Position numbers and translations under genes: made by a program | The notes under the pieces: generated by a model | Database searches by the model: none | What the model saw: the letters and a program-made list of their open reading frames with translations, nothing else | What the model was told of the DNA's origin: nothing | Shown here: positions 5,463-64,000 of the stretch, piece after piece | How positions within the stretch are numbered: position 1 is the stretch's first letter | Layout of the letters: the number at the start of each line of letters is the position of its first letter | Source: Polytrichum commune | Taxonomy: Eukaryota > Streptophyta > Polytrichopsida > Polytrichales > Polytrichaceae | Assembly: GCA_950295325.1 (NCBI GenBank) | Contig: OX485804.1 | Coordinates: 44,020,001-44,084,000, forward strand | Direction: 5' to 3' | Length of the DNA stretch: 64,000 nt

Positions 5463-5509
5463 TGTTTCGAGCATATTGCTTCTCGAAATATGTATAATTG
5501 GGGTCCGCA

Positions 5510-7399: not shown

Positions 7400-7400
7400 C

Positions 7401-7428
<28 letters not shown>
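7400..7428. repeat. (GT)n microsatellite
   Basis: About fourteen perfect GT dinucleotides, followed by a T run. Confidence 0.95.
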
Positions 7429-7431
<3 letters not shown>

Positions 7432-7496
7432 TTTTCCCTTCCCATCCGTGCTTGAAGTGCTCCACTAGAGAAGTCTTGGTTGTGGGTGTACATCAT

Positions 7497-7760: not shown

Positions 7761-8004
7761 CAATTGTTGGTGAAGAACCCATTTTGTAGCCAATCATATT
7801 GCTTCATTCCCCTAGGCTTCTTGACTAGTGCACTTCTTAACAGTAGTCTACCTAGCCCTTAGTCTAATGTTGGGACCTCTGGATAGTTAGGAAATGGATT
7901 GTTTTTTATAAATCTTTTTTTTGGACATGACAGCAACAAAAGAGACATCATATTAATTTGAGGCAATCGTGTGTTATTCAAGTATAACCCTCTCTCTACT
8001 AACT

Positions 8005-8360
8005 TCTCAGAGGATATGAAACACACAATTAGTAAAACATGATTGGCAAATCCAAATTGTGTCCATAGCCATTTGCTTCGTAGTTTTCAAGGTTCATATG
8101 AATATCTTGTTCATTGTTCAAGTGAAGATTCCTTTGCTCAACAAGTGGTCATAATGCATGTAGTCTCCCCAATCGAGTTGGTTGTTGAGCCTAGAATTGG
8201 TGGCAAACTTTGAGCATGATGTAGTCGAGTCTCTTTTAAGGACATGTCGTTTCAATATCCATTCTTAGATTCACACCTAACTACTTACCACTTACATATA
8301 GGTATCTTGAAGATTGCTACGTTCAACACCTACTCAATTTAGGCACATTTATTGTGAGAT
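8005..8360 (+). repeat. Dispersed repeat A, copy
   Basis: Matches 28855-29175 directly and 26360-26610 and 29925-30165 in reverse complement. The shared order is 'AGGATATGAA', 'GCAAATCCAAA', 'CATAGCCATTTGC', 'CATATGAATATCT', 'AGTGAAGATT', 'GTGGTCAT' and 'CCATTCTTAGAT(C/T)CACACCTAAC'. The loop side of the foldback element at 1.59-2.70 kb carries part of the same family. Confidence 0.7.
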
Positions 8361-9926
8361 CATGTTAAAATGAATCATACATAAAGTTATAAGGGGTAGA
8401 TTTCTACTGGAACACTGAAAATGGTTGGCATAAATTTATGTCAACCATAACCACATTCTTGAAATTACTTGTAGGAGGAAAGGTGGTCATTGCATACTAG
8501 TTAATACGAGTGTACCTTTCATTCATCCAACATAAAAACCTTGGAATAATGCATTTTGTTTGATGCCAAAATTAGCTCTTAGATTAGTTCATTTGAAGTC
8601 ATTTGGGATGAAACAACAATGGCCATACCACAACAATAGGCCAGATCAAGGTATTTTCTTTCAAGAATCTTGAGTTCGATATTGCATCTTGAAAAGCATC
8701 CACCACTAGAAGGAAACATGGCCTGCACAACAGACCGGTTTGACAGGGAGGGCCCGCTGTGTTGGATATTCGCACATGCAGCGCATATTTAGGGCGTGGG
8801 CCTATTCAATCCGCCAAAGTTAGAAAAAACAAACTTCCAATTTATGTACCTCTCAAAGTCATGTCATCCCTTTGCCTGCGTGGAGGAGGCCCATAGTCCA
8901 AAATTTGGCAAGGTGTATGAGTGTGGCATTTAATAAGTGCCTTCTACATTAAGGCATATGAAGTCCTCTCATTGAATAGGCGTTGATCGCAATGCAGGCA
9001 CTTCGAAATCATCCCCATTGTTCTGTGATTTTTGCAATGAAATTCGATCCAATACGGTAACTACACATCGTTAGGGTGGAGTCAATGCCCATGAATATAC
9101 CGTATTGCATATGCCTTCATCTGTGTGCTAGACTTTATGAATTCAATGTATTGTTTTATCTGATGCAATGTATTTCATCTATTTGCTGCAATGTATTTTG
9201 TTTATGTGCTGCAATGCATTTCGTGCAAGTATGCAGTTTTCTACTTGTACGTTCGTGAGTGTCCTAAATGCAATGTCGATGTGTAACCACTCCACAATTG
9301 AAAACAACGCTAGCATACAAGTATGCAACATGCAATATTGAGTGTTGTTGGGCTTGTATATAAGCTGAATTCATAGTCACTTTTCAATGTTTGCTTATTG
9401 CAAGCTTCTTGCATGTCATTCTGTTGTCTTTATAGGAACTTTCTATTGTGTCCCCCTCCTATCGTGCCTCTGCTAGGCTAGCGCATCACTACCCTAGTTG
9501 TGCAATCTTCGTCCCAACTTCTCCATCTCTTTGAAGTTTGAATCCAGGCGAGGACCTCTACCCCCTCATGCCCAACGCCGAGCTGCATTGTAATTCATCC
9601 ATTGCGCCATTCCCATGCACAGTTTACCGCCGCAACACACACATACTTCGTGCCCTTGTTAATGTCGACAACTGCGTGTGCATGCATACTCGAGATGTTA
9701 TGCAATGTCAGAAAATGAGGCCTTATATGATGGTATGTGTTGCTTGCAGCCATGGGCCCTAAATTAGGACCAATTCCAGCATTTACAGTACGCCGCGATA
9801 AAACCCTGCAAAAGTTGAACACCTATGAACTGAAACCCTGATTCCAGAAAATGCCATTCCAAGCCTTCCACATGTAGTGCCGACGGCAATACAAATGTCA
9901 ACTCACAACTTCTCTGTGGACCTTTG
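8361..9926. other. Spacer, no gene seen
   Basis: No supported gene. A degenerate tandem of about 27 bp built on 'CTGCAATGTATTTCGT' occurs at about 9160-9225. Confidence 0.4.
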
Positions 9927-10331
9927 CACAGGGAGGTCACTTCATTGTCAAGTTGACATCACGTGCGGACAAAGTTTGCTACCCCTATATTACATGCCAT
10001 ATATAATTTTAAAATTTATGATATTTTTTCTACATATACATAACCATTGATAGTATCTTTTGTATACTTTTATGAAATTTTTAGTCATCTTTTTTTCTTA
10101 GTAATGGTTTTAGTTCAATTCTGTGTCATTCTAGTTAGAAATGGTATGTTTTATGAGAAAAACAAATCATCAAATTTAGTTACCACTTTTGACTATGTCA
10201 TAGGTACTGTGTATATCTACTCATGAAAAAAATTTGATAAAATTTTGACCCATTTTGGTGGTGCAACTTACCAAAAGAAGATTTTTTTTGGTCGCACGTG
10301 GTGTTCAACTTGACAATGGAGTGATCTACCC
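9927..10331. mobile_element. MULE-like MITE, copy 1, with 11-bp target duplication
   Basis: A 405-bp element flanked by the identical 11-mer GTGGACCTTTG (9916-9926 and 10332-10342). The ends are imperfect inverted repeats of about 45 bp sharing CATTGTCAAGTTGA and CACGTGCG. It aligns over its length with a second copy at 50785-51193. Long terminal repeats and a 9-11-bp duplication point to the Mutator (MULE) superfamily. There is no coding sequence. Confidence 0.8.
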
Positions 10332-10342
10332 GTGGACCTTTG

Positions 10343-12286
10343 TCAATTGTCGTTTGTTGGGTGCATGAGTACCCACATTTTCTGCAAGAAATCGGACTAC
10401 GATTGATTTGCATCAATCACCAAAACAAACAAGTGGAAAACACCAAGGCTCACAATGTCCATAATCAATTGATCCATCCACACAAATCCCGCCGCGGCAA
10501 GATTCGCACTTGAGGCACACATATGCTCACTCCTTTGTGCAGTTGTGGGTCCATTCTTTGCCACAGAGTTGTTTTGTGTTGTTCTATTTACTGCCACCTC
10601 ATCCTCTTCCCCCTCCTTCCCGTTGTGTGCCATCGACAATATCATTTTCGTTTGTTGCCTCCCTCCTCTCTCCCTCCATTACTGCGTAGACACACTTTGG
10701 ACATGCGTTTCTTCAAAAATAGGACTGGTCCTGGATGACACTGCGTCCACAGTGGCCGAGACCATCAACCCGGTCCTTGACACATGTGTTGGTTGCCAAA
10801 TACTCTCATTTTTTTGTCCTTTTGGTGTGGGAAAGGACCCTCTTTCCTTCGAGTGCATTTCAATCATATATTGTGCTACTTCAACTGAGCGTGCCTACCA
10901 AGTCAACAAAAGTGGTTGAAATCACAAAATTATTACGTGACTTTATTGTAAGGCCATGGCCTTACATGATGAACCAAATATTAGTTTCGTTGGAGATAAG
11001 TGATGAAGTCATGAGCTGGTGTTCCATTATCTTGGGACTTCCCTCATTCGTGAGACTAGCGCGGCTAGGGATTTCATGTCAACATTCGTCACGTCGCGTC
11101 ATGTCATGGGACAATGACATGACATCAGGCCCCAAAGCGTCATGTCGGTGGGGGGTAAACTTGAAAATTTATCTAGGGGTAAACTAACGTGGTCAATGAT
11201 CTGGGTGACTAAAAAATATTAAATATTAAATATAGTAGTAAACTACACAAGAAAAAAATCCAAAATTCTCCCCAAAATTGGAAGATTGTTGGCAACAACA
11301 TTTGATAATCCAAAATCATTGGGGAGTTTTAATTCTTTTTTGTTTTAACAGTCAACCAGCTAATTGAATGCTCCAAATTGATTATTGTAGTCAACTTGAA
11401 GTAGTCGGCTAGTTTGGATATTGTGACTAGCAATCGACTTTTGGGAAAACCAAAAGAAAAACAAGAATTTCCAAAAAAATCTTGGACTGTTAGATCTTGC
11501 ATCCAACATGATGTAATGGTCCATATATTTTTGAAATTAAAACTATTGTTTTTAGAAGTCGACTCAAACAATAATAGTTGACTACAAGAGTTGACCAAAA
11601 AAAATTAAAAGAATAATCTACAAAAGCATTGTTGTAGTATTAAAAAAAAAACCATGTCCTGATATGATGGCTAGGGGTTGTGTCACATTCATTTGCACAT
11701 ACCTAAGTGCAGCTAATCATGGTGGAGACGTTTGGTCTCCTTAGTGACCCGCACTAGTAAGAGCATGTCCCAAACTCCCAAGGCTAGTAAGTGGTAATGG
11801 TAGCTTGCGGGGAGGTTAAGGCCTAATACTAGGACCATTAGTCAGGGTAGGCTTCCTACTCTAAACCCTGTTAGTACTAGGGTCGAGTGTATCCCATAGC
11901 GGGGTGAATGCCATGTGCCCCACACTTAAGTTTATTGAAGGAATTGGACTAACTCATGTGTGGTTGTGGTTGTGTGGTGTTGGTGGCATCACAAATCCAT
12001 TGAGTCCCACTTGACAGCCGCCATTGTTACGGAATCGATCGCCTTCGAACTAAGTGTGGTTTACATTGCGATAACTAATGACTCATTGAAGATTTTTATG
12101 ATTGTTGCATCTGAAATCCAATTCTAAAACTTGGAGATTCAATTATTAATGTTTGTGATTCCAATTGTTTATCGGATGACGCAATTCCTTAGGTGATCCA
12201 ATGGTCAACTTGTTGTGCAGAGTTATAGGTGTTAACTTATATGATTAGGGGAGTGGACCTAAAATGAACACCTCCAATTCTACATC
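10343..12286. other. Spacer, no gene recognised
   Basis: Overlapping frames of 71-150 codons lie at 10523-11187 (+), but none shows a recognisable domain or a consistent splice structure. The remainder is AT-rich. I cannot support a gene here. Confidence 0.4.
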
Positions 12287-12294
12287 CACTTCTC

Positions 12295-12972
12295 CAGGGT
12301 TGTCTATCCCGCCGTTATGACGGTGTCGTGCCGTCATGACGTGTCGTGTCGTGACGGACCCCTCCGTCACGACACAATAGGGTCCACGTAGGGTCAACAT
12401 AGGGGGAACGGAGTAGGGTGGGTAAAATACTTACCTTCTTGCCAAGGTGGCGTCCTATGTGGCAGAAAACGCCGACGTGGACGTGGATATGCCTAGCGCC
12501 AGGTAAACCATTTTGCCATTTTGTTTACCATTTTGTTAAAATCGAAGTAGTAAAAAACGACTAAGGAGGGTGTGGGGCGGACGGGGCAGACGGGGGGGAA
12601 CGGGGGGAACACCGGGGCGGACGGGGGGAACGCGGGGGCGGACGGGTGGGAACGGGGGCGGACCGGGGGGGGGGGGGCAGACCGGGTGTGGGAACGGGGG
12701 GGAACGGGGGTTGGGAACGGGGGCGGACGGGGGGGCGGACGGGGGTTGGATCAGGGGCTAGTAATTTTTTCCCCACTTTACCTCTACTTTGCTGACATGT
12801 CATCACACGTGGACATCTTACATCCTACGTGTCCGAAATGGGGTAATGTAATTATACACAACATTCGGTAAAATTCAAGTCCGTCAGGATAAAGACAACA
12901 TCCGGCATAATGTCGTGACGGCACGACATTATGCCGAGATTAGCCTCCGTCACGACACAATAGACAACCCTG
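12295..12972. mobile_element. Non-autonomous hAT element carrying a G-rich minisatellite
   Basis: Terminal inverted repeats CAGGGTTGTCTAT (12295) and ATAGACAACCCTG (ending 12972) are flanked by the identical 8-bp duplication CACTTCTC (12287-12294 and 12973-12980). This is the hAT signature. Palindromic subterminal repeats (CCGTCACGACACAATAG and its complement) stand near both ends, as is usual for hAT transposase binding. The interior at 12568-12755 is a strongly strand-asymmetric array built on GGGGGGAACGGGGGCGGAC. The open frames across it are low-complexity Gly/Arg or Pro/Arg strings and are not genes. Confidence 0.88.
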
Positions 12973-14360: not shown

Positions 14361-15699
14361 ATTCTTCATACAAGCAATTGGATTTGGTCATGGAAAGATT
14401 GCATAATTCAAAAAGTTTGAGGTTTAGGGTACTTCCTCAAGTGCATCATCAGATGCCCCAGACAAATAGCGCTCTGGATGCTTCCGGCTGAAATCCAGTA
14501 ACTCACAAGAAGAATCGGCTACATTTCCGGGACATTTTATGGTCCATCGGCTGATTGCCGGAGGATTGAAATTACAGTCGGATTGCCGTCCGATGGTTGG
14601 AAATTTGGACCGGCCATGAGGGGAAATCCATCGGCTGATAATGAACTAGCCGTCGGTTTTCCCCGAACATAGGTGTTGATTTCCTTCGGTTTTCCTTTAT
14701 TAAATCGGCGCATATTCCATAAATTCCTCTAAAACGATCGGTAATTCTCCTGCAGTCTTGAACTTCAACCGGTTATTCCTCAAACTCAACCGGTTCATCT
14801 GTAACTAACTGCCGGTTCTCCCCAATCATAGATCAAAAGGCAAATCATGTAATTAAATTAAGGAGAAGAGTTGAAAGTAAGAGGAGTTAGTGCTACCTGC
14901 AGTTGAGACTGGACTGCGATCATGAGATGTAATTGCTTTGTCATCACAAACGCTATCCCGCACCCAAAGCTTGCCATGTATACCTATGGATATATATGAT
15001 ACTAGGTATAATTGAGCACCGTTGAATACCCGTCATTGAAGGCAATAAAGAAAAATAAGAACAGCTGAGCTGCTATGAATGAGGAGGGCAGGTGTACTGA
15101 TGGCCACCTGCAGCAGCCCCTGTCATAAATTGTCACTTTAACTGCAGGTGTGAGCCTCATACTCCACCTCGTCACTGTCCGGGAAGATTTTTGGGGCATA
15201 ATCCGTCGAGCTCTCATGGCTAGTGTTCCCCAACAGTGATCGGGGAGATTTTAGGGCATACTAATCGGTTGAGATCCTAGTGTTTGCAAGTCCAACCGGT
15301 TACATGTTATTGACATCCTCCGGTTTTTCTTTATTAAGTTGGGGTATGTTCTATAAATTCCTCTTAAGGTGATCGGTGGTTTTCCTGTAGTCTTTGACTT
15401 CCACCGGTTATTTCTCAAACTCAACCGGTTCATTTGTAACTAACTGCCGGTTCTCCCCAATCATTGGTGTTCCCCAAGTCCCACCGGTTACATGTTATTG
15501 ACATCCTCCGGTTTTTCTTTATTAAATTGGGTATGTTCTATAAATTCCTATTAAGGTGATCGGTAGTTTTCCTGTAGTCTTTGACTTCCACCGGTTATTT
15601 CTCAAACTCAACCGGTTCATTTGTAACTAACTGCCGGTTCCCCCAATCATTGGTGTTCCCCAAGTCCCACCGGTTACATGTTGACATCTTTTAGTTTTT

Positions 15700-15870
15700 G
15701 GGTCCGAGATGACCCTAAACTACTGGATGATAGTGGAAAGGTACCCAAACTGAACATTGTGGTTGGCGGTTCAATTCCCGGTTGTGAAATCGTCTCTCTA
15801 CTTGACGGAAAACTAGCTAGGTGTTCAAGTGCCTCCTGTGTTTCAAAAGAAGCAAAAGAAGACATCAGAC
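15700..15870 (+). mobile_element. Possible second SINE, different family
   Basis: A B box (GGTTCAATTCC, 15768) lies exactly 44 nt after an A-box-like TGGATGATAGTGG (15724), the spacing of a real tRNA promoter. The sequence after the B box (CTCTCTACTTG) resembles what I recall of Au-type plant SINEs. No tail or target duplication is visible. The 113-codon frame covering it is probably incidental. Confidence 0.4.
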
Positions 15871-16019
15871 TCTCAGTTTTTCTTGAACAATTTGAGGTAT
15901 ATTCTGTAGATTCCCCTAAAATGATTGGTCACTATTATGAAGCCTTGGATTTCAGCCGGTTATTCTTCAAACATAATTGGTTCATATGTAACTACCGGTC
16001 GGTTCTCTGTGCTCCTTGA

Positions 16020-16567
16020 ACCTCATGCACTGTCTCATGGGTTCGATGGAAACAGAAGGTTTAGCTGATGTCTGAGAGAGTCGAATTTAGTACCCTCTAT
16101 CTTAAGGTGTGAGGATCTTATTTGGTTAGTGTTTCGTGTTCTTCATGTTCCTATTGATCAACTATATCAATGTACCCAAAACTTGTGTTGCGTTAGCAAA
16201 TCTATGATGAAGCATCGACAAGAATCAAATTGTAAATTGGTCATCCTTTAAATTAGTCATGATAATTGTGATTCGAAATTGCTTGTGTGTTGATTTCTCA
16301 AATGAAACCATAGGTTTCTTGGATAGTATTGACTATTTTCTCCATAACGGTTAATGAAATTTGAGGACACGGTCCAATCCCATTTATGCACGTGTCTTTA
16401 CGGAGTGTATTTTTACATCCACACCTAACCATCCAAAATAGGGGTTCCCAATCAAAAAAAATGTTCAAATTAGGCGCACACCTCCGTAGGGTTTGTGCAT
16501 GAAAGGATTACAGCCATACGAGTAAATTTCTTAAAACATCACTAACTCGAAGCCCTTATACACATAA
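16020..16567. other. Spacer, no gene seen
   Basis: Nothing recognisable. Confidence 0.35.
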
Positions 16568-16724
16568 CATTATTCAGATCCATAACAGTGTTATGTGGGA
16601 CTGACAATATTCCACAAAACATTCCTTGATATTTCTCAATTTCAGACTGAACATGGAAAATATTAGAAAATATTATGTGGAATACTGTCAGTCCCATAGA
16701 ACATTGTTATGGATCTGAATAATG
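16568..16724. mobile_element. 157-bp hairpin MITE
   Basis: The left arm 16568-16622 (CATTATTCAGATCCATAACA...) pairs with the right arm 16670-16724 (...TGTTATGGATCTGAATAATG), with a few mismatches and a loop of about 47 bp. A transcript would fold into a long stem, so it could be a MITE or a young miRNA/siRNA hairpin. No coding potential. Confidence 0.75.
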
Positions 16725-16729
16725 GTATG

Positions 16730-17465
16730 CAATGAATTGTGAAGTTAAAACCTTGAAAGCTCATCACACTTCATTAACTTCAATCCTTTTGATAAAGACA
16801 AATGATTTATGATTGGTTGACATTATGTATGTATATCATGTAGATTGGTGGGGGGTGGTGAATATGTCATGAGGAATAGAGGATAAATATCCACTAGCAA
16901 TTTGGAATCTTCCAAGCCGGAGCCATTGATATTGTCTGTCACCCTTTAGAAATATACTTGTATAAATTCATCTACTCCTCATGAAATATGGGGTCGTCGA
17001 TCATGAGGTCAGAGGTGTAGATGTTGACTGAACTGAAGAGTCGACGACCAATAGGAGTTTGAGGTTTCTTTGCCTCTAGTACCCTCGCTTTAAAACCAAC
17101 CCAAAAGAAAAAGAAAAGAAAAGAAAAGATCTCAATTCTCACATGATGTCCATTTATAACTAGAAGCCACATAATGTACCACTCAATGTGAGTATATTTT
17201 TATGATTAAAAAGGGTGGCTACATGAGGCCAACATACCATAAGGTAAGCGGGCCTAATTACTCATTCAAAATGGAGATCTACGTTTGAGTTATGTATAAT
17301 TAGGTCACATGTGTGGAGAAAGAACATACATCAAAAAGACATATCTAAAAGAGATTACTTCAATTTGTTCTAAAATTGCTATTCTAGTGGTTTCAATAGA
17401 CAATGTATTTGGGGTCTGGGGAGGGGCCCGGGAAGAAGGGGGGAGGGTTTACATATATGATCATC
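16730..17465. other. Spacer, no gene seen
   Basis: No credible gene. An A/G-rich run lies at about 17103-17130. Confidence 0.35.
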
Positions 17466-17468
17466 TAA

Positions 17469-18447
17469 GGGCCGGTTTACACTATGGTGGAGAAGTCCAC
17501 CGGTCATGAAAAAAAGGGCGTTTCTCAATTGTGATTGGTCGAAAATGCAACTCTTGACCGGTGGGTGTTTACACTAGGTGAAGAAAACAATGGTGGTGAA
17601 CTTTTCTCATGGATGATAAAATGACATGGCCGCCTACATGGCGGCACTTTTGGGAGTTGGGCTTCTCCGGCCTCAAGAGGCCGGAGAAGCCCAACTCAAT
17701 AAAAAATTATATGATCCAAAAAGAAATTGTGGCACATATCCACTTGGCCAGTCAAATTTCCACACCACCCTCTCCTTGCTCCCAAACAAAAAATATGCCA
17801 TCATCATAATTGAAGCATTATGGTGATACATGATGGTTTTTTGTATCGCCATAGTTGAAACGATAAAATACTTCAAAACCATAAAGATCATAAGAGAGCA
17901 CAAAATCTCTCTTCTTCGATTATCCATGATTGAAGATCAAAGATAAGAAGAGAGAAATTGATGAGGATGATTAAGAGGAGAGCATGTCTTAAATAATACC
18001 AAAGAGTAGTGCTTTGTCCAATGTGTATGGGTTTTCCCCTCTTCATTCTTAAACACCCAAGGAGACATTTATTTCCTACATGGGCCAAACTTGACAATTG
18101 GCAATTTGGCAATTTTCATTATCTTTTGAATAAAATTGAACATTATATTACACAATTCTTATGAACACAATTCTTGTTGAAATCTTTTGATACAATGTGA
18201 ATGTAGAGAATTATGGTTTTTTATCACAAAAATCTTCACCATTAGGTGAACTTCTCTTCACCGGTGGACTTCTCCGCTAAACTTCTCCTCTAGGTGTTTA
18301 GACTTCAACCGGTCAAGACTCCTTAAGAAATATTTTATTTCCTTTAATTCTTCTCCGGCACATCCACTATTTGCCTCATATAACCATGTCTTGGCCAAGC
18401 ATTCTTGACCGACCGGAGGCCTTCTGCACCATAGTGTAAACCGGCCC
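17469..18447. mobile_element. PIF/Harbinger-type non-autonomous element (979 bp)
   Basis: Terminal inverted repeats GGGCCGGTTTACACTATGG (17469) and its complement ending at 18447 are flanked on both sides by TAA, the 3-bp duplication typical of PIF/Harbinger. Inside are many ACCGGT motifs and a perfect 17-bp inverted repeat in the left part (GGCTTCTCCGGCCTCAA, 17658-17674, and its complement at 17677-17693). There is no transposase. The terminal core GGTTTACACTATGG recurs near 49.77 kb, downstream of the decayed Harbinger transposase. Confidence 0.85.
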
Positions 18448-23185: not shown

Positions 23186-23401
23186 ATACAATATATGTCG
23201 TCCCAACACATAGTATAGTGCTGCTCTTTTCAACCTTGACACCCACCTTAGCAAAGTCACCGAATTGGGCGCCCATGGGTTTAAATGTATGACAACAACA
23301 TCAACAACATGAGGAGTGTCATCATGATCAGCAACTACAAGGGACCCTGCAACTTGGGATAATTGTGGACCAGCTTCACCAACACAGATCAATTGACCAC
23401 A

Positions 23402-26400
23402 ATGGCGAGGATTTGTTGGCTGATCATCATATTGGCACTCATCTCTGCAATATGCCGGACCTTACCTTGCACGGAGGCGGTAGGGGGAAGAGCTGGCCTA
23501 GATCATGTACTAAAACCTCATTCGCAATTAGTAGCAACGCCTGGACATGTATTACCAGGGCTGAACTGCAGCAAACACCTGTTCATCAGCGGCTTCAAGC
23601 CATGCGGTGACTTGAACACCAAATGCTCCAAGCCCATCACCAAGCTCATCACCTGCTTGCAGTTCCTGGAAGGCCAGCTTCCCCGCCCAGACCCTATCTG
23701 CTGTGCAGCGGTGCAGGATGTGGCTACCAACAACCCGGAGTGCTTCTGCCAAGTCACCTTCTTCCCTCCGGATGGCATCAGCCTCGTGTTCCAGCAAGCC
23801 ATGCCCGTCTATTGCAATGCGACTAGTATTGCTGATGGGAAGCTGTGCGATGCATGCCCGGAGCTCCTGGGAGCTGTTCCTGGATCAAATCATTCCTGCT
23901 TGCAGCCAGGTAACATATATACAACACAAACCAGCTCTAGATTCATATCTCATCAAATCTGATATTTGCAGATTGATTCGTTCACATCATTATACTCCAA
24001 GTTTGAGGCAATGCCGACCAAACATAGGGTTCGATGAATCATTAAGTAAATGTTGAATTAGCACTGGAAAGAAGATGTTAAACCCTGAAGCTCCTGGATC
24101 AAAACACTCCTACTTGCAGGCCAGGTAACATATAGCATCACAAACCAGCTTAAGATTCAAGTATCATCAAATCTGATTTCACATTGATTCAATCACATCA
24201 TACTCCGATATTGAAGCAATGCCGACCAAACAAAGGGTTCAATGAGTTATTGACTAAATGTTGAATTAGTACTGGAAAGATGTTGAACCCTGAAGGGTAT
24301 GTAACGACACCAACTCAACAACATCAACCGTTTGAGATGTATCAGTCACATTCTTCTTCAGTACCTCTTCAACCAGCTATTCCTGGATGTCCTGGGATAG
24401 TGAATAGGGGATTCCTGCTTGCAGCCTGGTAGGTATGTATTCCTTCAGATTCTGATCCAGTCCCTTCAGCAACCAGCTGGTCCTGGATCATGTCCTGGGA
24501 TAGGGGCTAGGGAATAGGAGGCAATAGGAAACAAAAACAAGGGACATACTTCAACAAGAAACATAACAATTAATTTGAGGCTTTTCCTAGCCACATTGCT
24601 CAAGTGCAAACTTGTGATGATTGCTCTACACAACTTGGTGCAAGGAAGAAGTCCTACTGAAGAAAGTTGCTCTCTCTTATATGCGTGCACGGACAACACC
24701 GCCTTCCATCCTCAAGCATCTAAGTGTCGCGGAGTCTAACCATCTACTTAGAGTATTATTTCCCAAGTAGGTTAGTCACGGCACCATTTCGATGTTTGAG
24801 AATGAAACTCGGCTGCGAAGTAGGGTAGTCACCACAACAGAATGGGAACCTGGAAAAGAGGGCAATCTAGGGTTCAAGAAAAAATCTTCTCCTTTGCACT
24901 TGAGCTATGTGGAAGGCGAATACTTCACTTTTGTCATGACATGGATCCTATTTCTTCTTTTCTTTGTTTCCTGTTGCTAAATCTTTTCGGCATAGAAGGG
25001 GGAACAGTACTAGTGATAATGAATCAAGTTTCTGATCATCAGTTGGGTTTGCAAAATTCATTGTCTCCGATAGCTTGCTTCTCATCCCTGTACCTATACA
25101 TATTCCCCTTCTTACCATGAACAGTCGCTTTTGAGCTGATGCAGGATAGCCATGGCCTTTGGTTTTTGAAACCCTAATTCATCGTTCCTCATGAGTGAGC
25201 ATTCTGGTTGTGTAATTCCTGAGTGATCCGGAAATCGATGTTCCTCAAACCCTAATTCATCGTTTCTTCTCATTCAATGGCGATATCCTGGTTGTGTAAT
25301 TCCCGAGTGATCCCAAAATTGATGTTCCTCAAACCCTAATTCATTGTTTCTTCTCACTCAATAGCGACATTCTGGTTGTGTATTCCCGAATGCAGGTCAG
25401 AAGGCAACCAAAAATAGGGCGTTGGCGATTGCGGCCGCCATCATCACCACTTTGCTGGTGGTGTTCCTGGCTGTTTGCATCTGGCTGGCATGTCGACGCA
25501 AGAAGAGGGCATGGAGGTTCCCCGATTCCGCTTTAGACCGTGATGGTGAGTCTCCGAACTTTTATTTCCTTTCAATGTCCGGGCACTCCAATTAGCTCCC
25601 GAGCTGCATCACATTAACAGGCTGATCATCTGCGAAGACAATTAAAACTCAAACTAACTCCTCGCTCGCTGTGAAGAATGCTTTTGGCCATTTGTCCTGA
25701 TGATCACTTGAGGAGTTAGTGTTACTGAACACCAAAACTCTAGATCCATATATCATCAACACTGATTTCACATTGATTTAATCATATCAAGCTACATCAA
25801 CATTGAATCAATGCGGACCAAATATAGCGTTGCAATTTCACTTAATTTTTGTTTCTATATTTAGGAATCGGAAGATTCAAAGGCTGAAATGTCAGCTGAG
25901 TCAATGTGGAACGAATCATTAGCTACATATTGAATATTACCACTGCAAAGATGTTAAACCCTGAAGGGCATGTAACGACATGAAATGGGGTTTGTGTCTG
26001 TCCTTGTGTGTTTGACGTGATCAGAAATCATGAAGATCGAAGGAAGACCGACTCTCTTCACTTACAGCGTGCTGAAAACCGCCACGAAGAATTTTCATCC
26101 AGCTTGCAAGCTTGGGGAGGGAGGTTTTGGTGCAGTCTTCAAGGTACCGCCACCCTAAACTCTAAACTCGGCATTAGAACAACTAATTTACAAATTTGAT
26201 CAGCTGCAAGTTTTCTATCTGCAGCAACACCACCCATCAGAGATTTATGATTTGTGATCAACTCGATGGTACCTTTAATGGTACAACAATTTACACATCA
26301 AAGTTTTGTTGGATTTGAACAGTATGGTAACCATGTATAAGCTGATCCTGGGCATCCACTCCCCTCATGTGCTCTTAAGTAGATATGTGGGCCTTATGTG

Positions 26401-51193: not shown

Positions 51194-54100
51194 AACTTTT
51201 TTTTACAAAAATCAGGGTTTGTATTTTATTTTTTAAATATGTCATGCAGAGTCGTTTGTCGCGAATGCATGAATTTTTTATGCTTGACATTAAATGTCAA
51301 TTTGTTGACGTTTTGCTAAAACATCTCAAACGATCATCACAATTCATCATACATATGTCTAGCTTCCGTTTGAACATCGGAGCAAAGCAATTGGTCGTCG
51401 ATGTCGAGGACAATGCTATGTAGAGTTTCAAAGCCTTTAAAGTTCTTAAAATCCAAGGTTCATAAAAATAAAAATAGATCATATATTAGAAGGAAATACA
51501 CCTATTTTTATGTGAAGTGCTTCAATGATCACGAAGACATTTCAACATCATTAGAAGCCTCAATCCATCCTTCCTCGCTATCACTGTCACTAGATGATCC
51601 ATCAACTTCTGCAAAAATATGGAAATATTTTTCTACAGGACGGCAACTACTAGGTTTTTCTGGAGAAGGGTCTGGTGATGAAGTAGCTGCATACGCTTCT
51701 GCAACAATCTCAGCATGAAAAGGAAGCTGAAGAGGTCTAATAGGGCTTCTAATCTTACTAATATAGTGTGAGAGAATGCTTCCATCATACTTCAGCATAG
51801 AGGACTTCAACGCTTCCTTGCGCCATCTATAAACAAGTAAAAATCAACCATTTAAAAATGTTGGTAAGAAAAATTGAGGAAATGTTTAAAAATTTGAAGA
51901 TAGATAGTGTAGACTTACTTACAAGCTCGTTTGGCAACAGTCTTCTTCTCTGGCTCATCTGCATTCTCCAAAGGGCGTTTCTTCTTTGGAGAAGACCTTG
52001 TAACTTTGACTGACTGAACTTCTTCAGCTTGGGGAAGAAGAGGAACCAATACCTCTTTGTATAAGATACTGTCATATTCAAATGCAATAATATGACGATG
52101 AAAACTCTTTGATGTCCGAACAGAAGCACCTGAAATAAACAATACCATTTAGTACTTGGTATAAATTAATGACCAAACATATCAAAAGAAAAGTATAGGA
52201 AAAAAATAATACATGTGGAGGCTGTGAGGTCCATGACAATGTCATCTTCAATCGTGCAGAGATCAATAAGAGCCATGAGTACTTAAAAGACTTCTCCCGT
52301 GCACCTCTAAATGGCATTCTATACTCCGACTGAACAGTTAGAGAATCAACATCAATGAGGTTTGTGAGAGGTCCATCTGATGACAACTTGATGCCCTGTG
52401 CAAGAAGTTCAGGACGGTCACAAAACACAAAATTGGACATTGGAACCTCTTCATCCGGATTTTCCTTTCTAACAAAGCATTTCACCATGAAACACTTGTG
52501 CGTACGGGATGGATGATCCGGGACAGTAAAAAGAAGGCTGTTAATTGCAAACCACTTGGATTCCTCCTGAAAATTTGCCCAATCCGCCCAAGATAAAAAC
52601 TCATTGGATATAAACTTTGAATCAGGATAAAATACAATGAGGGCACCATCATCTTGAAGAAATTGCATGGCAAACTCAAAATGCCTCTTGATCCATATGG
52701 ATTCCACTTTTCCATCTATACGATCTGGTTTAGTCTTTGGATGACGGTTCCAAGGTGAAATTTCACCAGTAATACCAAGTCCAGGAACAGGTAAATCCTC
52801 CGGAACATTAAAGATAACAAGATCAACTACATTGTCAGCTTCACAACCCGCATAGCTTCGAATCTTTTTACCTTGATGATCTTTAATCCATGCTTTCATA
52901 CGCCTCCAAATCTTTGGCTCATCACTTTCAGTAACATCATCAAACAAGTCCAAAATACCTGAAAGACTATCATTGATGATCTCTATCCCAATCTCTACAT
53001 CATCCAACTGCGAGCATGGGATAGTATACACCGTTTGTGACGGAAAAGGGGCAACGGAAAGAGGCACCTGAGAAACCAAAGGAGTAATAGTAGCGGGCAT
53101 GCTACTGCCTGAAGGAGAAATACCCACATAAGAAAGAAGTTTCTCTGGCCCTTCCTTTAATACAAGCTTCGCCAACTCTTTGTTCCGTGCCGCAACCTCC
53201 TTCTTCAACTTTATTTCCTCCTCCTTGCCTTTCTTATTTTCTTCTTTCTCCTTCAAACGAGTTTCAACCTTTGCTTTATTGTCAGCCAATTTTTTCCTAT
53301 GTTTGTCAGATATAGAGTTGTCATCACCCACCTCCGATGCATCTTTTTCAATATGCACCAAATTCTCAGCCTCTAATTGTTGCATCATATTGTCACAACT
53401 AGCCTTCAAGGTTTTCTCCTCTCCAGGACATCTTTCATTTTCTTTTAACTCAAGATACCAAGGACATTGAAGAAGATGAGGTCTTCCAAAATATTTTTTC
53501 TAATAGTCTGAAAAAATACATTCACTACTAGAAACATCCACCCACTTGTTAAAACGTTGAGGAATGTTCTTCCTATCAATGGCCCCCTTAATCACCAACT
53601 CCCTCCAGAAATATCTCAAGATAGCTCTCTTCATAGCATTTTCAGTACCAGTTTGGACAAGAAATAACTCCTTCGTATAAGTGCCATCATTTGAAAAAAA
53701 TTCTTTGAAAGCCTTCCCCCATAAAGTAATAGAATGGGACTCAATCCAAGTTCCAATATCGTCCACTGGGTTGGACAAGTCCTCGGTCTTCAATATGATG
53801 GCATCTTCCTCCATAATTTTCTCAAATCGATTTACTGCCTCTTCCTCTAACTGCAACAATGTACAATTATTCAGCAAAACAAATTCAATTCAATCCATCT
53901 AATTCTCAAATTTTAGATATAACTTAAAGTTCATAAAAAATACAAATATACGGTTCAAAATAACATACCCCAGCCCAGAAGGCAGCTTGATCTATCCAAA
54001 TCCAAAGAACTGAATCAGAAGCGGGTGAGGGAGGAAAATTGTATTCTTTACGACTCTCCTTACTCATATTCCACCACCTTAACCATCTCTCTTTGTGCTT

Positions 54101-55894
54101 CGAAGAAACCTTTGTTGTTGCAATAAGTTGTAGTTTCTCTGAAGTCATCTCAGACTTCACTTGAAAGATATCAAAGTGACGAATAATCTACTTTCAAAAG
54201 TACAATTAGATTAGTAAAAATTTGCACTACAAAAAAAGACATAATATAGAAAACATTTAATGACATATATGCAAAATTTACGACATTAATTGTTTAGGTT
54301 TAACCCTCTCAAACCCGTAATCAAGACAACCACACAAAATAACATCACAAAAACCAGTGAAGGCCTCCTAATTTAACTAATCACTTACCTCAATCACATA
54401 GAACTTTTTCTAAAACAAAGCACACAATAACCATGTAAAGGGCAATAAGAGGATTATTATTTCATAAATATTTATTATAAACGTCCCATCTAACTTCTCT
54501 TGGATCCGAGACCATGCAAACCAAGTTGAATAAAATTACAAAAAACAAAAAAATCTATGATAGATGGTGGAGCACATACCTCTCTTATGAAACCCTCTCC
54601 ATTTGCTGGATTAGCAATTGCGAGGTACCGAAATAGGTCTGTGGAGAGGGAGGTCTTCTTTGCCTCAACAACCTTAGTTGCGTCGGCTTGTAGTTCAAAC
54701 GGACTTCCAATTCTATCTTCGCCTGTACCGATGACAAGACTGTCTTTGTACCACCTGATTGCCTCTTCTTGTGCTGCGGAGATTTCTCGCTACAAACAAA
54801 GATAACAAATTCAGACAAGTTCTCATTTAAACTTGTAGGTGATAAATTGAAAGTAGATAAGTAATTTACCTCGTATAAACAATTGATGAATGCATCGTGA
54901 GTAAGATGATATCACTTTCGTCTCTTCCCACCGTGACGATTCCACTCAAGAATACTAGCTTGAAGGTCTTCATCACTGACAAGTCTTTTAAGTTGATCAA
55001 AGTCTAGCAATCCCAATTGCTGGACACGCTTGACATTGTGCGTGAAGTGTTGGGCGACGTGATCAACCTGGTTTTTCCTGGATTGCATACACCTCAACTA
55101 AGAATACAAATGATACACGATGCATTTACTAACATGAGTATTTAAATAATAAATAACAAGAAATTCGAAATTCAAATAACATATTTTGAAGAACTTACTT
55201 GTTCCAATCTGTCATCGCATGCAATAGCATGTTACAATTTTCTGAAGATACGTTGATGAAAACAGAACATACGGGAACATGAAAAAATGCATCATCTTTA
55301 TGGAGGGCACTAATGACATCCATCCATGCAATATGACAGTGATTCCCGTCCCATACGTAGAAAAACCGATTAGAATACTTTCCTAATGCTGGATTTTTTG
55401 CCAATCGAGCTTCAAACTCCAAATCCTCCTTGCGCCACAAATCCGACCATGAAGCCCGATGAGTCTCCGTGACGGTTGCTTCTTCCATTCTAAAACTCCT
55501 TAAGGATAGATAGAAGCAGGCTGATGCCCGCCTATACCCACGAGAGAACTCTGCCTTCAACTTCTGAATGTCAGTCTTCAAGGGCTTTCTAACATCCTTC
55601 ATAGAAATCATCCTGCACAAGGGCACGTCAAGTTCACAGTTTGGAGATTCAAGTGCACTTTGAATTGCATCGTGTGAATTGCCTCTCACGGCTCTCCGTA
55701 ATTTCTCCTCAATCTCTGCTAAACCACCATCTTCAACCTCCATGTTGACCTTTGGGCTCTCGCTTTCACCCTCTGCAAATTCATGAGTCATCTGCGCATA
55801 TGGATAAGAGAATTGAGAAATAAGAGCATTTAAAAAAAAAAAAAACTAAAACCAAACAATGAGAACAAGATCATTTTGAAAAAAAAAAAATGAA

Positions 55895-58292: not shown

Positions 58293-59473
58293 GACACAGA
58301 TCGTGTTACAAGAAAGGGCAGAGCAGCTGGCTAATGAGGGAAAGGCCAAAGCATATGCCAGTTCAATGGCGGAGAAGCAAACTCCCCTCCGGACACGGGA
58401 AGGAGAAGAGAAGAGGGTGGGGGGGGGGTTAAAAGGTTTCTGGATGGATGGATGGATGACCAGGACCAGGTGGGGGAGAGGCTAAAACTCACCACACTGG
58501 TCTCACTCACACAACCTCGAAATCGACACTCTCCCCCTCAACTCACCACACATTTCCCACAAATGACGCAGTTTAGGGTTTCGGGTGAAGAAGCAGACTT
58601 GTGATTTGTGAGCAAGTATGCAATGGAATGAGTCTACAAAAAAAATAATGAACAATCCGTGTAATGTAATTGTGAATATGCTTCTCTATAGCAGTCGAGA
58701 TTGTGAAGATGCTTCTCTAGGATCCCACCCGACCTCGAAGCTGCACACTGAAACTCTCGCCAGGTTGGATGGTTCAATATCAGATTCCTCGCCTGAGATT
58801 TTCAAAAGAATCAGGAAAAAATTGCCCTTTCACCCTTGTCTCGGATCCGAGACAAGGCTTCATGTAGGTTGTTCTAGAGCTGGACCGCACACTATGAGGG
58901 ATGTGTAAACCCGGCGAAGCCTCCTCTCCTCCAGAAATAATTACATAAGGCATTCAAAACTAATTACTAAAACCTACCTCTTCAGCAAAGGGAGATTGAG
59001 CCTCAATCGTTGGCTGATCTCCGGGGCATGCGTCCCCTAGGTCGCCAACTTCACAGGCAATATCCTGCGAATCATTCAACGAATGCTCAAAACCCTAATG
59101 ATAAAAACCCTAGTGATCACAGTCAGAGTCACAAAAATGCAGGTTACGCAAAAAACTCCGAGTTTTCTCAGCCATAGTTTAAGTCTATGAATACACAGCT
59201 TGGTCAATATGCGAACCCTCAACAGACTACCCATAAACCATTGAGAATATTTACCTTGCAAATATCCCCTAATTCCTTAAAGTTCAAATGGTTTGTATCA
59301 TTTGAGCTGCTATCAGCCTCAACAATTTGATTAAGAGCCATTTTTTCCCGTCGTCTCCGTTGAGCCTTCAGTTGCTTTGGCAGTGTAAAATGGCTACTTC
59401 GTCTTCTTCCTCTACCTCTACATGATCTAAGAGCTCTTGGAACTACTGCACTTGGAACCTCGCCCTCCTTCAT

Positions 59474-60242
59474 GTGTCTGATTCACAATCACACCACAAC
59501 TAGTCACTACTAGAAACGAAATAGAAGCCAAGGATAATGTACATTGTCATTTCAATAGAATGACTCATTATTCTCTTCAAATTGCTTTAGGGTCTTCCCA
59601 TCAGATATTTCACTAATGGTTCATGATTAATATTTTCAGATCATGGCTCATGATTATATTTAGATAAACATTCTCATTGTTATTATTAGAGTACTTCTAC
59701 ACGATGTTCTCAATACATGTCTTCCAAAACAAACAAGTATAGCAATGGATAATTATAAAGCATCTAATTAGCTCATAGGACAAAGTACGATCGTCACGCA
59801 ATTTTAAGTATCTAGGATCTAACAGATTTAAGTGACTATGAATAGTGGTCTTAGCTTGCATGCCTTAGAATAGAGTCATGAACTCCATTTCAGTGCTATT
59901 AAAGGACATCTATAATTTTGGCATAAATACGACTGGATGCTATTATTGTATCACCTAACACCTTTATGCTTGGTGGTCTCAGCCGTCAATGGAATTCTTA
60001 ATTTCAATGCTTTATAAAATATGCTTTGCCTCTTTCAACACCTACTTTACAGATCATTGTCATATACAACAAATATTCTATTGAGCTTCCACCCACTACC
60101 TATAGTGTGACCACAAGGTCTACAATCCCATCCTCGGTGAGATATATAATGAGCATATCAATTGAAACCTTACATCTTCTTCTAAGCATTTTCTTATTCA
60201 AAGCATGATTGTACGTCTTCCATCTTGTATAGCACACTTAGA
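59474..60242. promoter_or_regulatory. Shared intergenic region between two divergent genes
   Basis: 769 bp separate the start codons of the ParB/methylase-like gene (-) and the MULE-type transposase gene (+). A TATA-like TTTATAAAAT lies at 60011-60020, about 220 bases before the plus-strand ATG. A bidirectional promoter is inference. Confidence 0.4.
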
Positions 60243-63200
60243 ATGACTTCTCTTAGATCCCACGCTGGAGGTGTTCCATTTGTGATGTCTTTGGGCCCAG
60301 ACGACAAGGTAGTTGTCCATGAACAACTTCTTAGTCTTAGGTTTGGTTTCAGATCTGGTACAATTTATGTGGAAGAGGAAGTGTTTGATGCTAATGGAGA
60401 GTTATGTGAGTCTATATTTCAGGTCAAGGATAGTACTGATGAGGGCTATGTCTGGAATTTAACAAGTGGTACTTACAAAGTGTACGGTTTATCAGATGTT
60501 CAAATGTCTGGGTCTACTATAATCATGACACCTCCTACTTCCACATCAACCGTTCATGTACCTGGTCTAGCTACTGTCAAAGTCGAACCGACTGAATCAA
60601 ATGTACATATATTGAGTGATTCAGACGATGACAATGTTAATGAGATCAAGCTAAGTGACATTTCAAGTAATCCATTTCAATCACGTGGCTTGCTTGGATC
60701 CGCACGTCCATTTCAGCACCATAGTCGCTCAAGTGTGTCACCGTCACTCTCTTTAGGACATCCACCTATTCATCCTAATTGTAGGAACAGTCGTAGTATC
60801 TTATTTGCTATTAGAAAGACTGCCTCTAGAAAGGGTTCTTGTTCAGAGCTTTCACGAATAGATTTTGACAGTATTGATCACGAACAAGTCAAGTATTTAC
60901 CTCCAACTTATGATGGAGAGAAGATATTTGAGTTGCCTCCTCTTCCTGAAGGAATTCCAACTCAATTTGGAGGTAGTATGGATGGAATGAGCAAACAATA
61001 CGATGGCCATACGTGGTGCAAAACCATCACAACTAATATCAAGAATGAATTTGGCCTTACCTATCGTAGGTCCTCTTGTACTGGACACCTTGAGTGCCCA
61101 AACCAGAGTTGTGATTACATCTGCAGGAACAATGGCAAGGTAAACTGCACAGAGTGGTCTGGAGTGGCTTTGATACCATTTTCAATTGGAGGGGGTCCAA
61201 GTGAGAAATCCACATTAGCGTGTAAGATTTGTCAAACACCTCCCATTTGCTTAGCATTATGTGATGCTAGAATCTACCATGTGTCGTCCAATGACAATGA
61301 TGTCACTCGTGCTGCAATCCACTTAGGATGTCACAATCATCCAGTATCTCAAGGAACATGTCAAGATTCCATGGACATTATGTATGATTGTGTTGCCAAG
61401 GAAGTCCAAGAGACTCCTAATGCAAAGAACTCTGCTATCATCATGGTGGCAAGTAAGAACTATCTTGCGGATGCCTTGATTCGTCCAACTCCAGGCGGAA
61501 GCAACCTTCAAGGAGCATCTATGGATGTTGTTATGGACCAGTTTGAGACGCTTACTTCACCAAACTTACGCAACTTCGTATCTGGAACAAAGAGATTCTT
61601 CCGTCAGGGGAGAGGAGTTACGGATAGCATTCTCGAATTCAAAGACTACTCCAACTTTGTTTTCATCCACCAAAATCAATTTCCAGGTCAAAACAAGGGA
61701 AAGGTATTTGTTTTCAAGATGTCCGTGGACCGTCCAGGGAGTGGTGTGGACTTGGTGAAGCGCATGCAACCCGGCGGTGACCTTCAAGATTGTTGGGTCA
61801 TGTTCGACCATGTGAAGCGTGTTTCTAGTTGGACTACTATGGAATGCCATGTCTACGACAGCAAGTATTGTAAGGTAATGACCATTGCCCTTTGTGATAT
61901 GCAATCTGAGGATGCAGAAGCCCAAGAGTTGTTTTGGCTTCATCTGAACGAAGTTATGCGGAAGAATGGATTAGAGACTACAAACTTCAAGGGCTTCATG
62001 GCTGATAGTGTTGGAGCCAATTGGCACGCCGTTCGCAAAGTATATGGCAACGGAGATCCCAACAAATGCATGGAGAACCGGGAGCGGACATGTTTGTTTC
62101 ACTGGACAAAGTGCCTTCAAAGAGCCACCTCTAAAAACATTCTACCGGGTTTTCAAGACCAACACATCGCTATGTGCAAAGTCTGGAAGGATGCTAAGTC
62201 TCAAGAAGAAGCAGAAGCGCAGTATAATGTCATTCGGGGTTGGTGGCTTTCATCTGGTGCTACAACAGAGGATGGAAGGCGTTCTCTAAATGACTGGATG
62301 GCATTCTGGCACTTTCGCTACAGACAGTGGGGCGGCTCTATGCAACTTGTAAGTTTGTGCATCACTTCACATGTTTTAATACACTAAACCTTCACTGTAA
62401 TTCATATCGTTAGGCCATTACTCATCTTTGCATGTGGTTTCTCCAGGACCTCACTCTTGACGAGAGGGCGGACATGCCTTTTTGCAATCTAGCGGAAACT
62501 GTCCACAACAGATGGCTGCAACAGTCCGGAAACACAATGACATGTTTGTACGAGGCTACGGTGGACGATCTCGTTCGTGCTTTCATGCAGATTACAAGCT
62601 ACCGATTTTGGTTGAAAGGGGGGAAGGGAGGAAAAGGACCAGACAAATCTGAACTTCGTTTACGCCATGCACAACGCTCTGGAGACCCTAAGCTAATAGC
62701 TGAGGCGATTAACTCTTATCCTGGGGCTGCAGATCTATTGACCAAGAAAGGAGGCCTTGAGGGCGCAGAGATTTTTGGGTCCACAAAACGAAAGTTAGAT
62801 TTGCCACCAGGATCAAGTCATGATTCACATCGGTCGGATACAGTGAATTACTCTATTCCACGTGATGGTACCAGGTCCACTAAAGCACGCATTGAGGAGG
62901 CTCTATCTAAACCTGACTCGGGCGTCCAACACACTACCTCCGTTTTGGAGACCAACTGCGATCCTTTGAAGTGGCACATTGCCCGTCTTTCAAGCAAATC
63001 CGCACGGAAATGCCAGGCCATGTGTGCTCATACTAATGAGAAATGCGATACCAGAGTAGGACGAGGTCCACATGGCACCCATGCCCCTACGTATGTTGGC
63101 GATAAGAAGGGGTACAAAACTCATCGAACTATTTCTACAGAATTTTGGTTTTGTGCAGATGACATTAATCGATGTGTGGAGGGGACCAAGAAATCCTTTG

Positions 63201-63817
63201 TGGTAGGTTGGCCATCTGTTCCTATGACTTGGCCTGTGAAGAAGGGTACAAACTTAACTATGAAGGAAATCTTGGCTCTAGAAGAGGCAGGTTTCCAACT
63301 CCAACAACGTGGTGCCTTATCTCCGCGCCGTCAATTCCAGAATGCAGCAAACATGCCACTTCCAAAATCACATTTCCCAACTCCTGTGAATCCAGACTCA
63401 CATCCTACAACTCGAGACGGTTTTGCCATCAGAAGAAGTTCAGATGCACCCACTCCTGAGTATCGCAATAAGTGGAGCAGTGCAGGACTTATGAACAATT
63501 GTCATGTGACAAGCGTTACGTCCATACCATACCCTGCATATGGGTGTGTTATATCCATGGATAGTGGTAATGGAAAGGTGTATTATATTACCATCACCGA
63601 TTTACCGGGATGTACCTGCCCCGATTTCATGAAGATGACATCAAAGACCTTAGGAAAGAAGGGTCAATGGAGGTATTGCAAGCATGTGTACTACATCTTT
63701 CGCTATTTCTGCAAGATGGATTACAAAGTGGACACTTTCATGCACGCACCCAGCTTTAGCTACAATGAGGTTATGCATATTTTAGAACTTGCTAAAGTTG
63801 CTGAACCACTTGTGTAG
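60243..63817 (+). CDS. MULE-type transposase-like protein with WRKY/GCM1-like and SWIM zinc fingers
   Basis: Two exons, 60243-62348 and 62447-63817, joined at a consensus donor (CTT|GTAAGT) and acceptor (CTCCAG|GAC), phase 0, 1,158 aa, no stops. Residues 112-130 hold a sumoylation consensus VKVE and an acidic SUMO-interacting motif (VHILSDSDDD). About 250-370 is a Cys/His domain of the WRKY-GCM1 type (DGHTWCK, YRRSSCTG.LECPNQSCDY, then GCHNH). About 515-625 is the MULE DDE core: FDHVKR (first Asp), MADSVGAN (second Asp), CLFHW. The C-terminal part has a second Cys/His cluster (CQAMCAH...FWFCADDINRC) and a SWIM finger (CTCPDF...YCKH). The intact frame argues for a young transposon or a domesticated gene. 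No terminal repeats are visible in the remaining flank. Confidence 0.85.
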
Positions 63818-64000
63818 TTCCTTGACTTCCTTCATGCTTCAAGGTGCTTGGTAGTGATCTTTTTAGTTGGGGAATCCCATCTTCAAATAGCGGAATTGAT
63901 TTGAATTGCCTTTGATTTGTATTTGAATCTGCACATTATTAAAAGATCATATTTATGAAACCATGAATTTTCCAATCTTGGATACAAAAGGATTGCCATG
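63818..64000. other. 3' flank of the transposase-like gene
   Basis: AT-rich, probably 3' UTR. No terminal inverted repeat recognised before the window ends. Confidence 0.4.

Follow-up and report, generated by a model that had tools for sequence, protein, structure and literature searches.

A decayed two-gene DNA transposon of Polytrichum commune with a methylase-like second gene

A 64,000-nucleotide stretch of the Polytrichum commune genome (contig OX485804.1, positions 44,020,001 to 44,084,000; here called the window, with coordinates counted from its first letter) raises the question of what a long spliced gene combining ParB-like and permuted DNA methylase-like motifs represents in a plant. 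The original prediction, made from the sequence alone, took it for a spliced plant gene. Target-site duplications, defined ends, multiple copies, and a linked partner gene identify it instead as a transposon gene. What the window holds is a decayed copy of a DNA transposon of the cut-and-paste kind that carries two genes, and the evidence contradicts host-gene status. We refer to the spliced minus-strand gene as gene 2 and to its plus-strand partner, a probable transposase gene, as gene 1.

Mobility signature and two-gene architecture

The ends of the window element were set by comparison with a sibling copy on contig C3, with which it has sharp common ends. By this comparison the transposon spans 50381 to 64453 (14,073 bp); its right end lies beyond the window, which holds the part from 50381 to 64000. 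A perfect 10-bp target-site duplication (TSD), ATTCTCACAG, flanks the element on either side, the left copy at 50371 to 50380 and the right copy following position 64453, outside the window (neither the TSD nor the element as a whole is assigned a strand). The left terminal inverted repeat, starting CAGGAATGCTATCTTGTGAGC, lies at 50381 to 50440 on the plus strand (inner border approximate) and contains GTGAGC hexamers, while the right end, read inwards, begins CAGCGACGCTATCTTGTGAGC. Repeated GTGAGC or GAGCGG-like hexamers are a feature of the element termini.

The gene pair is carried by four subfamilies, A (that of the window), B, C, and D, with 31 to 54% protein identity of B to D to A, and copies are present on all seven large contigs of the 408-Mb genome. 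Fourteen elements were examined for their ends. Both ends were found in eight (two of subfamily A and six of subfamily B), and in all eight the TSD was at least 10 bp (shared strings of 10, 10, 10, 10, 13, 11, 11, and 10 bp). The remaining six, all of subfamily A, had one end within the sequence examined in four cases and neither in two. By eye, CTTACGAAAG could also be read at both flanks of a subfamily C element, which is 17,042 bp long.

Gene 1 lies in two plus-strand open reading frames (ORFs; 60186 to 62387 and 62414 to 63817). Exon 1 (60243 to 62360, ends approximate) covers a putative transposase core, FDH...MADS, and exon 2 (62444 to 63817, start approximate) runs from NLAE through a SWIM-like CTCPDF to YCKH. 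To the eye, gene 1 resembles a DDE transposase with a SWIM finger in its FDH...MADS...NLAE pattern and its CxC...CKH end, and it is probably the transposase of the element. The SWIM profile (PF04434) gave a weak match (E 0.076) in subfamily B gene 1 only and none for the C-terminal piece of the subfamily A gene, the CxCx...CxH arrangement being visible by eye in A, B, and C. A single-sequence AlphaFold model of the gene 1 core had a mean predicted local distance difference test score (pLDDT) of 41.2.

The two genes travel together. The best 61 of 2550 candidate matches to gene 1 were scored, 11 of them at 96 to 100% identity and 50 at 53 to 55%. For 33 of the 61, a listed gene 2 match lay within 15 kb in divergent orientation; one had the other orientation and 27 had none listed, the gene 2 list being the best 150 of 1020 candidates. 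Random placement gave a mean of 0.65 such pairs and a maximum of 3. In C and D, too, gene 1 adjoins gene 2, its identity to the A gene being 43% in C and 49 to 52% in D.

The element resembles Mutator-like elements (MULEs), for which a TSD of 8 to 11 bp is stated (PMC6446971). Its 10-bp TSD is in that range, with which the eight elements having both ends located agree, and it has a putative SWIM-like C terminus, a second ORF as several MULE groups do, and a captured host fragment of large subunit (LSU) rRNA. Unlike MULEs, it has short iterated hexamers at its ends and a gene 1 that does not match PF10551, the Pfam MULE profile, in A, B, C, or the D core; nor did the 142 genome-wide PF10551 matches that were listed include window gene 1. 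Profile comparison of gene 1 with MULE proteins also returned nothing, with narrow profiles (4 rows each) in one run and several void MULE rows in another. An identification as Lanisha was rejected, the group to which it belongs making TSDs of 2 to 5 bp (PMC12730594) versus 10 bp here, and a viral origin was dropped, as no viral gene turned up and none was searched for by name.

Methylase ancestry of gene 2 and loss of DPPY

In the window, gene 2 consists of minus-strand exons with GT/AG borders between 59473 and 51529, the splice sites being set by eye from the sequence. Exon 1 (59255 to 59473) encodes a basic N terminus and is followed by exon 2 (58978 to 59064) and by exon 3 (55199 to 55791), which contains the ParB-like region named here after its DGNHR motif. 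Exons 4 (54870 to 55077) and 5 (54580 to 54789) come next, then a putative exon 6 of just 21 nt (54389 to 54409), uncertain and absent from the subfamily B and C models, and exon 7 (53969 to 54187), with homologous stretches in B and C. Exon 8 (52213 to 53850) encodes a linker and the methylase-like catalytic-loop half (VDLVIFNVPEDLP), exon 9 (51919 to 52129) the end of the half with the S-adenosylmethionine (SAM) motif (GASVRTSKSFHRHIIAFEYD), and exon 10 (51529 to 51826) an acidic C terminus. The spliced exons and the motifs first reported for them (VPL..I, RGY, VWDGNH, VDLVIFNVPEDLP, VMDLTAST, and HRHIIAFEYD) are thus present, with ten exons drawn as against the nine proposed. They do not form one long protein: an in-frame TGA follows GGKRRK in exon 4 (54914 to 54912), an in-frame TAG follows CIFSDY in exon 8 (53502 to 53500), and a frameshift ahead of VMDLTAST in exon 8 puts this motif and the catalytic-loop part in different reading frames. 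With two in-frame stops and a frameshift, the window copy of gene 2 is therefore dead.

Intron 2 of this copy contains two captured LSU rRNA fragments on the plus strand, at 57603 to 57929 (E 1.3e-70) and 58055 to 58394 (E 9.3e-25). The C3 sibling is 98% identical to the window across the LSU rRNA stretch, so that the capture must be older than the split of at least that copy.

As a family, gene 2 has been kept under selection across copies. Genome-wide, the best 150 of 1020 candidate matches to the ParB-like exon were scored, 18 at 88 to 100% identity and 132 at 31 to 42%, and the methylase-like exon has at least 100 matches (the best 100 of 711 candidates). Judged by eye, exon borders in A correspond to those in C and in part to those in B. 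The ratio of nonsynonymous to synonymous substitutions (dN/dS) was computed for the ParB-like exon in 14 copy pairs, with dS finite in seven and saturated in seven. It was 0.07 to 0.26 in the six finite pairs without the window copy (two of these at dS >2, hence rough) and 1.04 for the window copy against a sibling. For the catalytic-loop exon, five of nine pairs gave finite values. Pairs from inside the D-like and C groups had 0.07, 0.11, and 0.11; two pairs of A copies, of which one included the window copy, had about 0.7 and about 0.8.

Some copies appear to be recent. Ten of 61 subfamily C matches to the DGNHR exon are 100% identical and four are 99% identical, with no stop in the exon among those. 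In one C element (G000:C1:37668690-37685731), gene 2 is open for 1100 codons from exon 3 to its stop, with AG/GT at every inner border, and the two gene 1 stretches are stop-free, i.e., both genes are open as far as read. A copy on contig C6, with an exon 3 that is 100% identical, has a stop in exon 4; recent C copies are therefore not all intact. A spliced subfamily B copy of gene 2 contains stops and frameshifts.

The second half of gene 2 is, on good evidence, a relative of the permuted N4/N6 DNA methylases. The methylase-like domain initially proposed for it was supported by family profiles and by colinear alignment to phage fusion proteins. The open C protein matched a CcrM model (E 1.2e-7), PHROG families of DNA methyltransferases (E down to 8.6e-8), and the solved structures of CcrM and DpnA (E about 1e-4). 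Its match to PF01555 (E 2.1e-5, 25.0 bits) is below the cut-off of 26.7 and covers only profile positions 163 to 215 of 221, and the Pfam search found no PF01555 match in the window exons. Most of these matches of the open C protein rest on the SAM-motif half. Those that extend into the catalytic half are phrog_498 (E 2e-5, residues 44 to 260 of 288) and MboIIA (E 0.0085); the catalytic half alone had no match in PDB. Aligned by hhalign with phage ParB-methylase fusions, the family profile scored 94% (E 1.1e-7) over 179 columns, colinear with the catalytic motif first and the SAM motif last, and 40 column shuffles used as a control peaked at 2.8%.

The catalytic motif of permuted beta-class DNA methyltransferases is [DNS]PP[YFW], and their glycine-rich SAM motif is DPFxGxG with a downstream acidic residue. 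In gene 2, the loop aligned with DPPY reads [DNEQ]xP[EDKN] in 27 of 27 rows, which include the window locus and close siblings. None fits [DNS]PP[YFW] and none has an aromatic fourth residue; the lack of a clear DPPY noted at the outset thus holds throughout the family. The SAM motif is DINAGVGTS in subfamily C and, e.g., DCTAATGMS or DLTCSTGAS elsewhere (15 rows, one out of register), and all 13 rows with a letter at the acidic position that follows the second strand have Glu there. Because the Glu is kept and DPPY is replaced, SAM binding by the gene 2 protein would be expected to be possible and ordinary amino-methylation unlikely.

In phage and bacterial ParB-N6_N4_Mtase fusions (e.g., Streptococcus phage Javan575, QBX21472.1), the permuted methylase half is colinear with that of gene 2 and is preceded by a ParB-type domain (PF02195 is found in such ORFs), where gene 2 has the DGNHR domain. 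The fusions keep DPPY and DPFLGSG, whereas gene 2 has lost DPPY, has an N-terminal domain with no ParB profile match, and is a transposon gene with introns. One Streptococcus phage ParB-methylase (L076:922-3033) is 703 amino acids long and has a long intein-like insert between the methylase halves, most relatives being of about 400 to 500 amino acids.

The ParB half of gene 2 is a motif only. The N-terminal motif of ParB is a DGxHR-type box preceded by a PLxxI-like stretch. Among 36 rows of the transposon family, two of which are an identical locus, 30 read DGNHR, three EGNHR, two DGNHC, and one DGNHH, and a PLCR and a G-Y-R stretch are invariant in ten rows of group A1. The Cys in place of Arg after DGNH is present in the window as had been described, and it is decay common to one sibling and not a trait of the family (DGNHR or EGNHR in 33 of 36). 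PHROG matches to ParB-like families were weak (phrog_1033 in four of 10 members, best E 0.11), and the family phrog_9020, of unknown function, scored higher (E 0.0099). A chance-like Pfam match to Phage_tube_C in one member (E 0.0035) also outscored ParB. A structural model of the ParB-like exon by single-sequence AlphaFold was uninformative (mean pLDDT 40.1). Other candidate relatives were discarded. When bacterial genomes were scanned with the N-domain profile, two of 196 had a match, both in short, interrupted frames (E 0.05 and 0.09), and seven stretches of viral contigs fitted the pattern DGNHRxxAW without any of them being a convincing relative. A PDB profile search gave four matches, none of them ParB, the best being ribosomal protein eL24 (E 0.0054), and a single-sequence PDB search gave one match (E 0.42).

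Subfamily-specific palindromes beside gene 2

The noncoding part of the element contains iterated palindromes that differ between subfamilies. The subfamily A palindrome, TTGTCTCGGATCCGAGACAA, occurs at four exact sites in intron 2 of window gene 2 (unstranded). The first, at 56070 to 56089, is within a 157-bp tandem array (55810 to 56375), and the other three, at 56528 to 56547, 57164 to 57183, and 58836 to 58855, are outside it; partial matches start at 55917, 56229, and 56374. Subfamily C has CTGTCGGATCCGACAG, and one of its elements contains 17 perfect palindromes of 16 bp; subfamily B has CCTGTGCGTTAACGCACAGG, with six and eight in two elements; shuffled elements contained a mean of 0.15 to 0.45 perfect 16-bp palindromes each. 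Genome-wide, there are 79 exact sites for A, 374 for C, and 490 for B, and none for the reversed-pattern control.

Proximity to gene 2 was assessed with the first 50 sites listed per subfamily, those of B and C all being on contig C1. All 50 A sites were within 10 kb of, and 5' to, the DGNHR exon of an A gene 2 match. Of the 50 C sites, 46 lay within this distance of a gene 2 match, 43 of them on its 5' side, and 43 of the 50 B sites were within 10 kb of, and 5' to, one. By chance, at most three sites would be expected near gene 2.

Tandem arrays are located between or inside the genes in all four subfamilies, with units of 64 bp in B, 170 bp (17 copies) in C, and 85 bp in D, beside the 157-bp array of A. 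The 85-bp units of D carry GTTAGAATCTAAC, by eye an odd-centred palindrome. In one D locus (joined piece L038+L037), the arrays (5425 to 10844 and 15200 to 17529) stand on both sides of the ParB-like exon in opposite orientations. The B1 element (joined piece L031+L032) has a second palindromic array of 32-bp units, GTTTGGGTCG-spacer-CGACCCAAAC, at about 7095 to 7376 and about 12123 to 12369, one between the genes and one in a gene 1 intron.

A candidate self-recognition factor and its rivals

We tentatively favor, at somewhat below an even chance, a reading in which gene 2 of this two-gene transposon encodes a methylase-derived, probably noncatalytic factor that acts through iterated cis sites in the manner of VANC. 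Gene 1 would move the element as its probable transposase, and gene 2 would encode a regulator specific to the element and derived from a permuted N4/N6 DNA methyltransferase, its SAM pocket partly kept, its DPPY replaced, and the methylase-derived part joined to the N-terminal DGNHR domain and a middle region. Without methylating them, the protein may bind the palindromes that recur in the noncoding sequence of the element encoding it; such binding would mark or shield the element in the way that VANC does for VANDAL, most probably against silencing by the host.

The VANDAL elements of Arabidopsis, which are MuDR-like, also combine a transposase with an element-specific second gene. VANC21 binds short motifs that recur in noncoding sequence of VANDAL21, the introns of VANC and the region upstream of its transposase gene included, and VANC causes methylation loss over VANDAL elements (PMC5735166). 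The two systems resemble each other in layout, with short family-specific motifs iterated in tandem repeats of the second gene's introns and upstream of the transposase, and with different motifs in related families (PMC5735166). There are differences. VANC proteins carry DUF1985/DUF287 and no methylase, and Pfam matched neither domain in gene 2; the VANC21 motif YAGTATTAY is non-palindromic and arrayed in one orientation (PMC5735166); and the function, shown for VANDAL, is one that we infer for the transposon here.

Anti-silencing genes of transposons are already known, from VANC and from the fungal DNA transposons with TET/JBP dioxygenases (PMC12730594). The latter resemble the present element in carrying a gene that descends from DNA-modification enzymes and is proposed to work against silencing, and differ in that this is a dioxygenase, not a methylase, in fungi and in several other superfamilies. 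A permuted N6_N4_MTase gene with introns is likewise known in a eukaryote, as the bdelloid rotifer host gene N4CMT (PMC8885841). N4CMT is catalytically active, fused to a chromodomain, and acts on transposons as a host gene, whereas gene 2 is the transposon's own and has an altered loop. Among the open-access PMC papers listed (titles and abstract openings), none described a plant transposon that bears a ParB or methylase gene, a weak negative, and none a transposon with a rewired methylase as conserved second gene together with iterated palindromes. If the VANC-like reading is true, a permuted bacterial-type methylase with a rewired loop and its own palindromic sites would represent a new route of mobile-DNA self-recognition. 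The system lends itself to a clean test: there are four diverged subfamilies, each of which has a protein and a candidate site of its own, and subfamily C has recent open copies.

Several results weigh against the VANC-like reading. Pfam does not recognize gene 1 as a transposase. The ParB-like module named in the original prediction retains VPL..I, RGY, and VWDGNH, and profiles did not show it to be a ParB domain: comparison with PF02195 gave a match in none of 10 members even at E up to 10; the 36 transposon rows aligned with 70 phage and bacterial ParB-methylase fusions (kept from 137 of 156 ORFs after length filtering and near-duplicate removal) at 0.4%; and hhalign against seven ParB ORFs and up to 26 fusion N termini gave 0.3 to 1.2%, inside the range of column-shuffled profiles. 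These failures count because a ParB relation would have supported DNA binding. As to the sites, seven of the 50 listed for B and four of the 50 for C are away from gene 2 matches, three of the 46 near C sites are on the 3' side of gene 2, and subfamily D has no 16-bp even-centred palindrome. Moreover, A and C share a 10-bp core, TCGGATCCGA, within different flanks and array units although their gene 2 proteins are only about 31 to 35% identical, and B, with a gene 2 about 40% identical to that of A, has a different core; divergence of site and protein is therefore not simply tracking. The palindromes could also be bound by the gene 1 protein or by a host protein.

Possible, and in our view rather unlikely, is a parS-like form of self-recognition, in which the DGNHR domain (of ParB/Srx type) and the rewired permuted methylase would load on the element's own palindromes and spread or mark from there, escaping silencing or channeling transposition. 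It would mean that a DNA-modification scaffold of prokaryotic origin now serves the element to recognize itself, and that sites and readers diverge from one subfamily to the next.

A little more doubtful still is that gene 2 is a transposition helper, mudrB-like or an accessory subunit, the palindromes then being internal sites for the transposase or helper rather than silencing targets. The divergent two-gene layout and the second ORF of several MULE groups (PMC6446971) would suit such a role, but the palindromes are internal and the ends carry different, GTGAGC-type repeats.

We consider improbable an active-enzyme reading, in which gene 2, its loop altered, works as a DNA methyltransferase on its own element, e.g., at the GATC contained in both the A and C palindromes, and so protects the element or recruits chromatin factors. 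Besides these GATC sites, the partly kept SAM motif, with DINAGVGTS in C and the conserved Glu, is consistent with an enzyme, and the permuted bacterial methylase of bdelloid rotifers does write N4-methylcytosine in a eukaryote (PMC8885841). Against this stand the DPPY position, altered in every row and never with an aromatic fourth residue, and the B palindrome, which has no GATC.

We give about as little weight to the palindrome arrays being passive tandem-repeat expansions with no protein partner, and gene 2 having an unrelated role. Many sites are indeed in tandem arrays able to expand alone, namely the 64-, 170-, and 85-bp units of B, C, and D and the 157-bp array of A, but this would not account for the core common to A and C despite different flanks and array units, for the three of four exact window sites outside the array, or for the two different palindromic arrays in B. 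Finally, a spliced host gene, or a small host gene family encoding a ParB-methylase fusion, would fit the introns and the long conceptual protein but is left with next to no likelihood by the copies on all seven large contigs, the TSDs and terminal inverted repeats, the 14 C matches at 99 to 100%, and the linked gene 1.

As do the introns, a lipid-transfer protein gene (LTP_2, E 4.1e-7), on the plus strand at 23363 to 23962 of the window, points to a plant host. Elsewhere in the assembly, PF02195 has three matches and no others (four candidates; L001 to L003), on the small contigs G000:C12 and G000:C23 (61 kb and 20 kb), which are possibly bacterial contamination or symbiont DNA.

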